From: Cyanobacterium sp. uoEpiScrs1
Lineage (GTDB): Bacteria; Cyanobacteriota; Cyanobacteriia; Cyanobacteriales; Microcystaceae
Reading direction: 5' to 3'
Assembly (NCBI RefSeq): GCF_947331815.1
Contig: NZ_OX373462.1
Coordinates: 1,785,376 to 1,849,375 of the forward strand
Length of the DNA stretch: 64,000 bases
The position numbers and the translations under genes were made by a program. Position 1 is the first letter of the stretch. The number at the start of each line of letters is the position of its first letter. Shown piece after piece: positions 23,012 through 27,770 of this stretch. Under the pieces are notes generated by a model. That model saw only the letters and a program-made list of their open reading frames with translations. It was not told where the DNA came from and searched no databases.

Positions 23012-25654
23012 CTACAATGCATCTCGAACTAAAATAACAGTACTGCGAACTTGCCGAGCAATTGTTTTAGGAAGATTTCCATACATCACTTGTTCTAACA
23101 GACCCTCACGACTAACCCCTAACATCACTACATCACAGTTTTCAGCCGTTGCTAAATGAACTACTGCATCAGCCACCGACTGGGAACGAATGGGTAAAGG
23201 AATAACAAGACGCTCAAGAGTTCGTTTCAATTCTTGAGCAGTTTGTTCTAAAGCTTGGTATTGTGGGAAATCTCCATCGGGGGAGAATACCTTACACAAC
23301 CAAATAATTGGTGATCGGGAACGATTATATAACCCAGTTAGTCCAGGAAGTAACTCCATAGCTCGTTGTGCATTTGGTCCTCCAGCGATAGGAATTAACC
23401 AGGTGGCATCTTTGTCTAAATTATGAGGGTAAACATCATGATTATCACCCAATTTTACTAAAACTAACTCACAAGGCGCTTTACGAATCAAAAAATCAAC
23501 TACATGTCCAAAAACTGCACCAGGAGTTCGACTATCTTCAGTCCATTCCAAAATCATTAAATTAATATGGCGATCACGGATTGTCTCTAAAATAGCTTGA
23601 GAGATATCATGGGCAACCCGGATTTGGGTATGAACTGGAAGACCTTTATTTTTTCCTAATTTTTCCAGGTGTTGGAGTAATTGGCGATAAGGTTGATTTG
23701 CCAGAGAAGTTTGGGCTGGATTACTGTGTTTTGGAACTTTAACTATCCGTAAACATTCTAATTCTGATTGTTTCTGACTTGCGATCGCAGCTCCAATTTT
23801 GAACAAAGCCGTTGCACTATCTAAGTTAGCTAACGGTAATAGAATACGTCCTTCCCCAATAGCTGGGGCGCGGGTTTGATAGACAACATAAGAAGGTTCT
23901 TGCAAGGATTCATTTCCTTGAGCATCATTACCTTCGAGTTTATTAGCCTCTACACGAATAATATCAGTTCTTGTAATAATTCCTACTAATTTTGTCCCTT
24001 CTGTCACTGGCAGACGAGATAATAGATATCGATTTAGTATATAAAGAACATCACTTAGGACAGCATCGGCTGGAACTGTAATCGGGCGTGGAGTCATGAA
24101 ATCTCTGAGATATTTGTCTGGCGAATATTGAGCCGAATTAGCCAAATCAGTTTGAGTAACAATTCCCACTAACTTGCCCTTCTCCATTACTGGGAAACCA
24201 CGATGACTTGACACGGACATTGCTTGAAAAACTTCTTCAAGGGTTAAATGACTAGGTAAACTTTCTACCTTAGACTGCATAACGTCGGCGGCAGTTAATC
24301 GAGATAAAAAATCTTGCGCTGTTGCTGCTTCATTAATGCAAATACCCTTAGTTTTAAGCATGTCTTCGTATAAGGATCCTCGTGATGCACTTTCAGCTAC
24401 CACATAAGAAACTGCACAAGTCACCATTAAAGGAAGAACAATATTAAAATCTGTATTTAATTCAAAGACAATGACAATGGCTGTCACCGGAACCCGGACT
24501 ACCGCAGTAAAAAAGCCCCCCATTCCTGCCAGGGCATAAGTAGATTCAGCTCCCGTCCCTGTCAGAAATTCCTCAAAATCTCCTACCAGATAGCCTAAGG
24601 CAGATCCCAAAACCAATGCAGGGGCAAAAAGTCCCCCTGGAGCATTAGAACTATAAGCTAATATAGTCAGGAAAAAATGAGCAATAAAAGCCAAAAGAAT
24701 TTTGTCTCCACTCAATTCTCCCGTTACTAAAAAAGTTCTTAATCCTGCATTATCTTGAAAAAAAGGAGGTAGAATAGCAACAATCATCCCAGAAATCATG
24801 CCGACCAGCCCCATCCGCCAGGGTAAAGGTAAATTAAGACGGCTTTGTACGGTTAGACTAAATAGCAATCCCCGTTTAAACAGTGTGCCCAATATCCCGG
24901 CTAAAATTCCCAGTAATAGGTAAAAAGGAATTTCGGAAGCTGAAAAGCTAATATTTGGCAGATCTAAAAGGGAAGATGAAAATGACAAAGATGCTGACTG
25001 GAGTATTAAGGAGACGACAGCCCCCACAAATGAAGCAACAATAGCAGTTTGTAGAGTTAGACCAGAAACATCGCGCATCAACTCTTCAACCACAAATAGA
25101 ACCCCAGCAATAGGAGTGCTAAATCCAGCAGCTAGTCCGGCAGCTGCTCCAGCAGCGATCATTTGTCGTCGATGTTCAGGTGAGGTTGGAACCCAACTAC
25201 TTAATTGTGCCGCTAAAGCTGCTCCAATATGGACTGTAGGAGCACGACGACCTAGGGTTAACCCACCTCCTAGGACCATAATCGTACCGATTAATTTGAC
25301 CAGAACAACTTGTAGAGATAATGGAACAGGGTAGCGTGCCAACGATGCTTTAACCTGGGTAATACCACCTCCTGCAGCACTGAGAGAAACTTGTTCAATC
25401 AACCATCCCGATATTAATCCTAAAGTTAAGCCTCCCAGGGGAAGGATCCAGATCGCTCCAAATTGATTGGCTAGACTTACTCGCAATCCTCCCAACCAAC
25501 CGACGCCTACTTTAAGAATAAGAGCGGCTAAAGCTGAAAGAAATCCAATCAAACAAGCTTCTAATAAGGCATAGCGAGGATCGGTGGTACTAAGCCCAAA
25601 GTTGCTGGAAGTGAGCCATTGGTAGAGACGTTTGGGATAGAAATGAGGCTGCAT
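23012..25654 (-). CDS. ClC-type anion transporter with CBS pair and two universal-stress domains
   Basis: An 880-residue inner-membrane protein. Residues about 30-435 are a ClC core of many helices. Two CBS domains follow at about 455-570, then two UspA-like domains at about 610-735 and 745-880 ending in VMLGVSREGLLEQVMYG. The architecture is known in cyanobacteria. The ClC filter is unusual: GSGIP is replaced by GGGIT (95-99) and GREGP by GRRAP (135-139), so the gating glutamate is an arginine, while the inner glutamate (LFVVEE, 190-191) and GLFAP remain. Substrate and transport mode are therefore uncertain. A HIP1 site lies at 23781-23788. It is a single-gene unit. Confidence 0.88.
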   Translation of the reverse strand: MQPHFYPKRLYQWLTSSNFGLSTTDPRYALLEACLIGFLSALAALILKVGVGWLGGLRVSLANQFGAIWILPLGGLTLGLISGWLIEQVSLSAAGGGITQVKASLARYPVPLSLQVVLVKLIGTIMVLGGGLTLGRRAPTVHIGAALAAQLSSWVPTSPEHRRQMIAAGAAAGLAAGFSTPIAGVLFVVEELMRDVSGLTLQTAIVASFVGAVVSLILQSASLSFSSSLLDLPNISFSASEIPFYLLLGILAGILGTLFKRGLLFSLTVQSRLNLPLPWRMGLVGMISGMIVAILPPFFQDNAGLRTFLVTGELSGDKILLAFIAHFFLTILAYSSNAPGGLFAPALVLGSALGYLVGDFEEFLTGTGAESTYALAGMGGFFTAVVRVPVTAIVIVFELNTDFNIVLPLMVTCAVSYVVAESASRGSLYEDMLKTKGICINEAATAQDFLSRLTAADVMQSKVESLPSHLTLEEVFQAMSVSSHRGFPVMEKGKLVGIVTQTDLANSAQYSPDKYLRDFMTPRPITVPADAVLSDVLYILNRYLLSRLPVTEGTKLVGIITRTDIIRVEANKLEGNDAQGNESLQEPSYVVYQTRAPAIGEGRILLPLANLDSATALFKIGAAIASQKQSELECLRIVKVPKHSNPAQTSLANQPYRQLLQHLEKLGKNKGLPVHTQIRVAHDISQAILETIRDRHINLMILEWTEDSRTPGAVFGHVVDFLIRKAPCELVLVKLGDNHDVYPHNLDKDATWLIPIAGGPNAQRAMELLPGLTGLYNRSRSPIIWLCKVFSPDGDFPQYQALEQTAQELKRTLERLVIPLPIRSQSVADAVVHLATAENCDVVMLGVSREGLLEQVMYGNLPKTIARQVRSTVILVRDAL

Positions 25655-26463
25655 GCTTCACTAAATTGAGGCCAAGTGTATTAATCATAGATTATTCTTA
25701 GAGCTTTAGCTAATAATCCTTTAGATCTCTTTGTAATTTGAATAATTTGATGGTAAGAAGATGGTGTTGCTATTAAGTATTTCCTAGTCTTTCTAAGCTA
25801 GAAAATATTACCCTATATACTTTAATAGTACTAGCCAAAGTCTTTACGTGCAATTGCTCTCTATAGAGTCTAAATTTAAACTATTTTCAAATACGTTTTT
25901 GATTATTTAAAGTCAACTTCCAGAATATTATTTATTCTGCAAACTAATAATATATATTTATTTAACATATTTTACTCTATTATTTACGTATTTATTAAAT
26001 GGATATTCAAGAATATTTACAAACAAATAATTTACTATTAAGTTTGATAACTTAATCTTTTTATAGATACTTCGTTGTAATTTAATGTTTTGTAAATAAA
26101 AATCTAAGTATTTTATTATGTTGTGTTTAAATATAAAGTAGTTAAATTATATTATTAAATATAGACAAACAAGACAGAAAAGATTTTGTCAGAAAAATAG
26201 CTAAAATTATATTAATTAATATAGATAATAAATTATTTTTTAAGTTAATTAAAATTGCATAAATTATCTATAAATAATAAGTTTAAGAACTATTTCTTTC
26301 TCATTGTTGTCGAAAGAATTCCTATTATATAGCAATTATATTTTCTTGCACAAACTAAATACTTAATTATATAAACAAAAGATGTAAAAGTTACTCTACT
26401 ACGCTAGAGATTAGTTAAAATAAATAAAGAATAAAGAATAAATATTTTATATATTAGTCGCTC

Positions 26464-26501
26464 ACATAGATATAGATTTTATCTAAGATCTATATCTATG
26501 T
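26464..26501. repeat. orphan 14-bp hairpin
   Basis: Arms 26464-26477 and 26488-26501 pair perfectly over 14 bp with a 10-nt loop. The nearest gene ends are more than 700 nt away. Confidence 0.45.
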
Positions 26502-26811
26502 ATTATTAAGTGATTTAGATTTTTAGATTTATTTTTGCTAATTTAGCTGCAGGACAAACAACTATATTCAATTGAATATACATTCATATTACAAATTAAT
26601 AGTAAATAATATTATTTTTATTGCTTATCAGATATAAATTATAAAGCTGACATGATGTATCAGGTTATGTATAGTATTTAGTTATTGTTATTTTTATTCA
26701 AAAATATTCGATAATTTTATATGTTTATATTTTGACGACAAGAGAAATTAGAACTATATAAACACAGATTAAAATGCCAACAAAATCATAGATCTAATTA
26801 CTGATTAAATT

Positions 26812-26860
26812 ATTATTTACTAATAAGTTTATTTTTTTAAAAAACTTATTAGTAAATAAT
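26812..26860 (-). terminator. 19-bp perfect hairpin
   Basis: Arms 26812-26830 and 26842-26860 are exact reverse complements over 19 bp with an 11-nt loop. It could terminate the minus-strand gene at 27240-27473, 380 nt upstream. Confidence 0.45.
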
Positions 26861-27239
26861 TTACTTTTCAATAAAACACTCAAGTAAAATAATTAATTGC
26901 TAGATGTTATCTTCTTTAGGAAGTTAAGTTGACATAATAATAACTATAACTATTATTGAATTTAATCTGTAACTATAAAACAAAAAAATTGATTGTTATC
27001 ATCATACAGACAAGAAAAAGCTCAACTAAATAACTTATAAATATCAACAATATAAATACATTGAGCTAAGATATATTACCTTAGTTTTAATAATAAAATA
27101 TTAATGCTATTTGTACAGTTAATAAAATACTGATAGAGATGACTTAATAATTATAATTTAATTTAGTTTGTTGAATTAATCTAGGAGTCAATATAGTAAA
27201 GATACTTTTTCCACAAGATGGAAAGCTTACAATGAGGTT

Positions 27240-27473
27240 TCAACGTCCTAGTTTTTGTGTTTGAGCAACAAAACCAGCATTGACGTAGCGAATATAATTA
27301 TTAATACGATCTTTTTGACCAATACGACCAGGATTTTTAAAAATATCCGTCAATCCCACACCCAAAACCATAACAACTAGAGAAAGAATAATATAATTAC
27401 GGATAATAGTAACTTTGTTAGTTGAAGTTGATAACATCTTGCTATATGATGAGCATTTTAAAGTTAAATTCAT
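27240..27473 (-). CDS. small single-pass membrane protein, unrecognised
   Basis: A 77-residue ORF; a second ATG at 27437 would give 65 residues starting MLSTSTNKVTIIRNY. One hydrophobic helix spans about residues 27-44, followed by a short polar domain with IFKNPGRIGQKDRINNYIRYV. The charge pattern and the GC content, higher than the surrounding spacer, suggest a real gene, and its survival within about 2 kb of eroded DNA argues it is under selection. I do not recognise the family. It might be a small subunit of a respiratory or thylakoid complex, but nothing in the sequence shows this. Confidence 0.6.
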   Translation of the reverse strand: MNLTLKCSSYSKMLSTSTNKVTIIRNYIILSLVVMVLGVGLTDIFKNPGRIGQKDRINNYIRYVNAGFVAQTQKLGR

Positions 27474-27770
27474 GACAAATATAACGAAAATTTTATAGAT
27501 ATAACCGTACCTAAAAGTATTGGTAATTATGAATTTAAATAAATTTAAATTTATTTAAATTCCTTGCCTTTTGTATAAAAACTGTCTAAGAAGATCTGAG
27601 CGCTCACTAGCATAACACTTTTGTCAAAATTATATCCGAGGACAACCTATTAAATTTTACTAACTGTGATTGTGTGTATTCTGAAATTAAAGCACTTGCT
27701 TTATTGAATTATTCTCCTATATCTTTTAAGGACGGTATCCTGTTGTTACCCTCTCATTCTTCAGTTGAAC

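Follow-up and report, generated by a model that had tools for sequence, protein, structure and literature searches.

The ClC protein encoded in the window (the whole stretch of 64,000 nucleotides of the Cyanobacterium sp. uoEpiScrs1 genome analysed here) has an arginine in place of the gate glutamate that in ClC proteins shuts the outer pore and carries the proton. The altered gate is a family pattern and not a quirk of this single protein, as most of its sampled cyanobacterial relatives lack the glutamate too. By analogy with characterized ClC mutants, we consider it reasonably likely that the protein is a proton-uncoupled, passive anion pathway (most likely for Cl-) that is regulated through its CBS and Usp domains and descended from a Cl-/H+ exchanger.

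The gene occupies positions 23012..25654 of the minus strand, where all of its features described below also lie, and encodes 880 aa from an ATG start. Pfam placed the product in the ClC family with 284.7 bits for Voltage_CLC (PF00654) against a curated cut-off of 24.8, the domain covering residues 79-420 (24395..25420; E 1.4e-84). It is followed by a CBS pair at about residues 452-568 (23951..24301; two PF00571 stretches, the first boundary approximate), a first Usp domain at residues 603-734 (23453..23848), and a second at about residues 757-880 (23015..23386), the bounds of which are approximate and were inferred from a second Pfam Usp stretch. This ClC-CBS-CBS-Usp-Usp order, together with a single clade shared with its relatives, makes the protein a member of a cyanobacterial ClC-CBS-Usp subfamily. 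The window genome is complete at 2.48 Mb, and this is its sole PF00654 gene. Its neighbours, named from reading their open reading frames, are nadK-like, wecB-like, and inositol-phosphatase-like, and the order wecB-like, nadK-like, ClC, inositol-phosphatase-like is retained in the diatom endosymbionts named below. The 2.1-kb stretch upstream of the gene (window 25655-27764) has a longest open reading frame of 77 aa and no Rfam match. A structure prediction whose input was limited to the window protein plus three named relatives reached a pLDDT of 33.6, and no claim made here is built on that model.

A phmmer search against PDB (best E = 1.3e-46) paired two motifs without gaps with those of E. 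coli ClcA: GRRAP (residues 135-139; 25238..25252) with GREGP, and GGGIT (residues 95-99; 25358..25372) with GSGIP. Position, strand, and letters of both motifs were exactly as the initial annotation had them, and its replacement of the gate glutamate by arginine was borne out by this ungapped alignment, in which R137 (25244-25246) corresponds to E148, A138 to G149, and G96 to S107. The hallmark external glutamate of exchangers is thus absent from the window protein, as is the central-site serine of the GSGIP motif that marks Cl- selectivity, and the internal proton glutamate, Glu_in (E203 in ClcA), is present as E191 (25082..25084). Also kept are the third filter motif, GLFAP (residues 341-345; 24620..24634), in which F343 corresponds to F357, and the central-site tyrosine, Y429 (24368..24370), equivalent to Y445. 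The non-standard selectivity filter of the initial annotation therefore holds for GSGIP, which has become GGGIT, but does not extend to GLFAP or the central tyrosine: what is altered is the outer gate and one filter motif. A non-glutamate gate is also the hallmark of ClC-K-like proteins, which R137 shares as a likeness of working mode and not of kinship. Where ClcA has E113, every family member among the matches listed carries a basic residue (lysine in the window protein), a point that we count against a passive pathway. PDB matches to CLC-F were weaker (phmmer, E 7.3e-12). Nothing pointed to misalignment or to an error in the sequence at the gate, and the ungapped conserved flanks and 38 distinct Arg gene sequences leave such explanations with almost no probability.

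Relatives were drawn from 39 near genomes and 388 genomes of the class, and the best matches listed were read. At 1e-60, matches came from 275 of the 388 class genomes, and about 150 of the listed matches, the higher-scoring ones, were read, so the resulting set of 168 distinct relatives leans toward the window protein. Near-duplicates were merged by an identical start of the matched stretch; L001, L035, and L036 were excluded from the motif count, and the paralog L186 was counted in the raw tally of 170 aligned rows, not in the set of 168. Among the matches listed, GRRAP was present in 31 of these 170 rows and an Arg gate in 39, the window protein being counted twice, which excludes chance and answers the initial annotation's question whether GRRAP is a subfamily trait with yes. 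The larger pattern was one it had not foreseen, namely that most sampled ClC-Usp proteins carry glutamine: of the 168 relatives among the matches listed, 105 had Gln at the gate, 38 Arg, and 25 Glu, the gate glutamate thus being missing in 143. The paralogous ClCs of related genomes served as an internal control and had the gate glutamate in 19 of the 19 aligned (2 of the 21 fetched were unalignable).

Neighbouring pore positions varied with the gate residue. Among the matches listed, Gly occupied the Ser107 position in all 38 Arg proteins, and Ser prevailed there in the Gln proteins (102 of 105; Gly in 2, Thr in 1) and the Glu proteins (24 of 25; Gly in 1). The residue after the gate was Ala in 30, Gly in 7, and Ser in 1 of the 38 Arg-clade proteins, Ala and Ser at this position being confined to that clade among the matches listed. 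An acidic residue occupied the Glu_in position in all Arg proteins (100%), in 99% of the Gln proteins, and in 84% of the Glu proteins, again among the matches listed. An independent DNA scan found GRQGPT-type motifs in 193 of the 388 class genomes, and its control, the reversed pattern, matched in one genome row among the rows listed. The corresponding scan for the Arg motif matched in 69 of the 388, mostly outside the ClC-Usp gene; when coordinates were compared by eye, 23 of the listed matches fell inside it, all of them from six families within the order to which the window belongs, and one that was read (G355) was confirmed as GRRGP/GGGIP. A second origin of Arg in G382 and G331 was considered and rejected, as both motif matches were chance ones when read, and the G371 stretch, read for another reason, contained no ClC.

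The tree (173 rows, motif columns left out, rooted on paralogs) placed the Arg proteins in one clade of 38 rows (SH-aLRT 100) nested among the Gln proteins, with the Glu proteins mostly basal and one further Glu set inside the Gln proteins. The order of gate states is therefore Glu to Gln to Arg, and Arg arose once. These changes are reachable by single-base steps in the standard code (GAR, CAR, CGR), and the codon in the window gene is CGT. The minimum number of gate changes on the tree is six, though the number of Glu-Gln changes is uncertain because several deep branches are weakly supported. The Glu gates found among the Gln-gate proteins, those of L176 and of the group L168/L158/L156/L172/L164/L169, may be reversion or retention. 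Arg and the change of Ser107 to Gly arose together only once, leaving one independent pair, so their link is unreplicated; Ser to Gly without Arg was seen in 3 rows among the matches listed, and a coupling of the two is suggestive but not proven. Position 202 of the window protein, near Glu_in, is a second marker of the Arg clade: among the matches listed, it is Glu in 30 and Gln in 8 of the 38 Arg proteins (Q202 in the window protein) and Gly in 104 of 105 Gln-gate proteins.

Purifying selection on the ClC gene is strong among diatom endosymbionts. Compared with its orthologs in three genomes of the window's genus, the endosymbionts of Epithemia clementina (EcSB), Epithemia turgida (EtSB), and Rhopalodia gibberula, dN/dS values were 0.058, 0.044, and 0.062 for the ClC part and 0.098, 0.101, and 0.122 for the CBS-Usp part. 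Each of the four diatom-endosymbiont genomes (G001, G003, G005, and the window genome, which by its kinship is probably another of them) has one PF00654 gene, of the Arg form, as do G013 and G021, two genomes of 1.4-1.5 Mb from the same family as the window that we take, from their size and relationship, to be UCYN-A. The ClC of G013 (1.44 Mb, presumably UCYN-A1; L027, G013:C1:439852-444564) is 579 aa long and ends after the CBS pair, with both Usp domains lost and no Usp remnant found downstream of the gene, and that of G021, from the same genus, keeps 879 aa. ATP-binding Usp proteins carry the signature G-2X-G-9X-G[ST], which the window protein lacks in its first Usp domain; among the 37 Arg proteins covered, the signature is complete in 5 and partial in 10, and 22 have neither. 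The initial annotation's intact CBS pair and Usp domains are thus borne out at the level of Pfam matches, but the first Usp domain has not kept its nucleotide signature. Most Arg-type proteins, this one included, have a degraded signature there (window 23453-23848), and the CBS aspartates, D503 and D564, are conserved.

With the change from Glu through Gln to Arg, an exchanger probably became a passive route for anions, since published E148A and E148Q mutants behave in this way. E148A/E148Q and ClC-4/-5 mutants lose H+ coupling and keep conduction (PMC4188032, PMC7253180, PMC7274781): E148A is called H+-uncoupled (PMC7274781), E148Q catalyses downhill Cl- transport (PMC7253180), and a gate-glutamate exchange matching that of ClcA uncouples ClC-4 and ClC-5 (PMC4188032). 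Loss of the gate carboxylate would take away the group that competes with Cl- and moves H+ along the outer pore. The first step, Glu to Gln, removed the carboxylate and preserved the size of the residue, and the second, taken once, brought Arg together with the change of Ser107 to Gly, stripping the central site of a side chain and setting a fixed positive charge at the former gate. Mutating E148 together with Y445, the central-site tyrosine, raised unitary transport further (PMC4188032); in the Arg clade, the gate carboxylate and Ser107, the other central-site side chain, are both lost. A138, a change of Gly to Ala, parallels human ClC-5 G212A beside the gate glutamate, which shifted activation by ~100 mV without uncoupling (PMC4436585), although ClC-5 has the gate glutamate where the window protein has Arg. 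The CBS pair and Usp tail would regulate this anion pathway from the cytoplasm. Altered coupling or channel-like behaviour, as proposed in the initial annotation, is therefore the natural prediction from mutants that lose coupling, and holds as an analogy with them.

Other features, too, sit less easily with a passive pathway. According to a review, ClC anion sites form without full positive charges (PMC4188032), so an Arg at the gate is unusual: at the outer site it may either stabilise anions or hinder them, and it could block instead of conduct. The kept Glu_in (E191) counts against uncoupling because an uncoupled protein would have no use for it, but it could have a structural role or serve coupling by another route. 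In the literature searched we found neither an assayed Arg-gate ClC nor a transport assay of any family member. A protein that is still a coupled anion/H+ exchanger, with another residue or a water wire standing in for the gate glutamate, would account for the near-invariant acidic Glu_in of the Arg and Gln proteins, and for the acidic residue that the Arg clade gained at position 202 in 30 of 38 members, among the matches listed. Glu_in, one of two glutamates, need not be titratable for H+ pumping (PMC7253180), but the dispensable residue in that study is Glu_in and not the gate. Our column-by-column search of the core found no substitute acidic residue near the outer gate among the matches listed, a glutamate elsewhere in the gate included. 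The only near-pore core position that is acidic mainly in Arg proteins is 202 (Glu in 79% among the matches listed), which is Gln in the window protein and adjoins Glu_in in sequence instead of the outer gate. We therefore regard continued coupling as unlikely.

Retuned selectivity for another anion (e.g., bicarbonate, nitrate, or sulfate), brought about by Arg and by Gly at Ser107, seems improbable to us as well. Ser107 is a selectivity position, with Ser favouring Cl- and Pro favouring nitrate in plant ClCs (PMC7733266), and its replacement by Gly throughout the Arg proteins among the matches listed fits such a shift, but the serine is kept in nearly all Gln-type relatives listed and no neighbour gene suggests another anion. 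It is quite improbable, too, that Arg plugs the pore and that the ClC core now serves as a sensor or scaffold that does not conduct: a side chain with a fixed positive charge at the outer site could hold anions tightly and the large regulatory tail is present, yet the pore residues are conserved, dN/dS is lower in the ClC part than in the CBS-Usp part, and the presumed UCYN-A1 genome drops the Usp tail and retains the ClC part.

Returning to the passive anion pathway, its role in the cell is the weakest step of this report. As the only ClC of diatom endosymbionts, it would serve as a leak for anions, offsetting electrogenic transport or handing back Cl- imported by other carriers. These endosymbionts have lost photosynthesis and kept thylakoid membranes and respiration (PMC11070190), so an anion leak balancing proton pumping is plausible. 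An NKCC1-like cotransporter is present in all Rhopalodian endosymbionts and UCYN-A and has been proposed as an ammonium export route (PMC12903740). We detected an NKCC/KCC-like cation-chloride cotransporter in the window genome (L207, G000:C1:1337295-1338608, 747 aa); it contains AA_permease and SLC12 domains, and its best matches in the PDB were to SLC12A2. Speculatively, a passive anion path would complete the circuit if L207 transports Cl-. As a long shot, R137 may reach the outer site and, with Ser107 gone, form an arginine-lined conductance unlike the helix-dipole sites of other ClCs, which in N2-fixing endosymbionts with this as their only ClC would return the Cl- of the NKCC/KCC-like cotransporter and so aid ammonium export to the host.

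ClCs span channels and exchangers, and what divides the two is an old open question. The family is a natural experiment on it, with Glu, Gln, and Arg forms of one protein, Glu_in nearly always kept, and unaltered paralogs as controls; because one family has all three forms, loss of coupling is testable on orthologs and not on crippled mutants. In the literature searched, which covered few subscription journals, we found no paper dealing with cyanobacterial ClCs whose gate residue is Gln or Arg and no description of a bacterial family mostly without the gate glutamate, with Glu_in, that moved to Arg. The available parts of PMC12069385 and PMC3516471 contain nothing bearing on the gate of the cyanobacterial ClC-Usp family.

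Among known systems, the closest matches were the Cl-/H+ exchangers E. coli ClcA (CLC-ec1; aligned residues 26-433, E 1.3e-46) and Synechocystis Sll0855 (3nd0; aligned residues 30-433, E 6e-44), both of the same ClC fold. The window protein resembles ClcA in keeping Glu_in, GxFAP, and the central tyrosine, but differs from both exchangers in its gate Arg, Ser107 to Gly, and G149 to Ala, and in having a CBS pair and two Usp domains. We know of no Usp domain in ClC-Ka/Kb, nor in CLC-G, which is a plant clade. Loss of the gate glutamate is of a known kind, because it is naturally absent from ClC-Ka/Kb, which have Val there (PMC4188032), and naturally replaced in plant CLC-G, a predicted channel (PMC7733266). 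However, ClC-Ka/Kb are animal channels working with barttin and have Val instead of Arg, and CLC-G keeps the filter serine (PMC7733266). The CLC-ec1 mutants E148A/E148Q and E148-Y445 lack the carboxylate at the same gate position and show passive Cl- flux, but they are engineered and not Arg, and the central change in the window protein is at Ser107 instead of Tyr445. Synechocystis Sll1864, known here from its annotation alone as a probable chloride channel, is possibly a cyanobacterial relative, and its gene is overlapped by nirP1 (PMC10907346). The thylakoid ClC AtCLCe keeps the gate glutamate and is missing the proton glutamate (PMC4746265), the reverse of the window protein.
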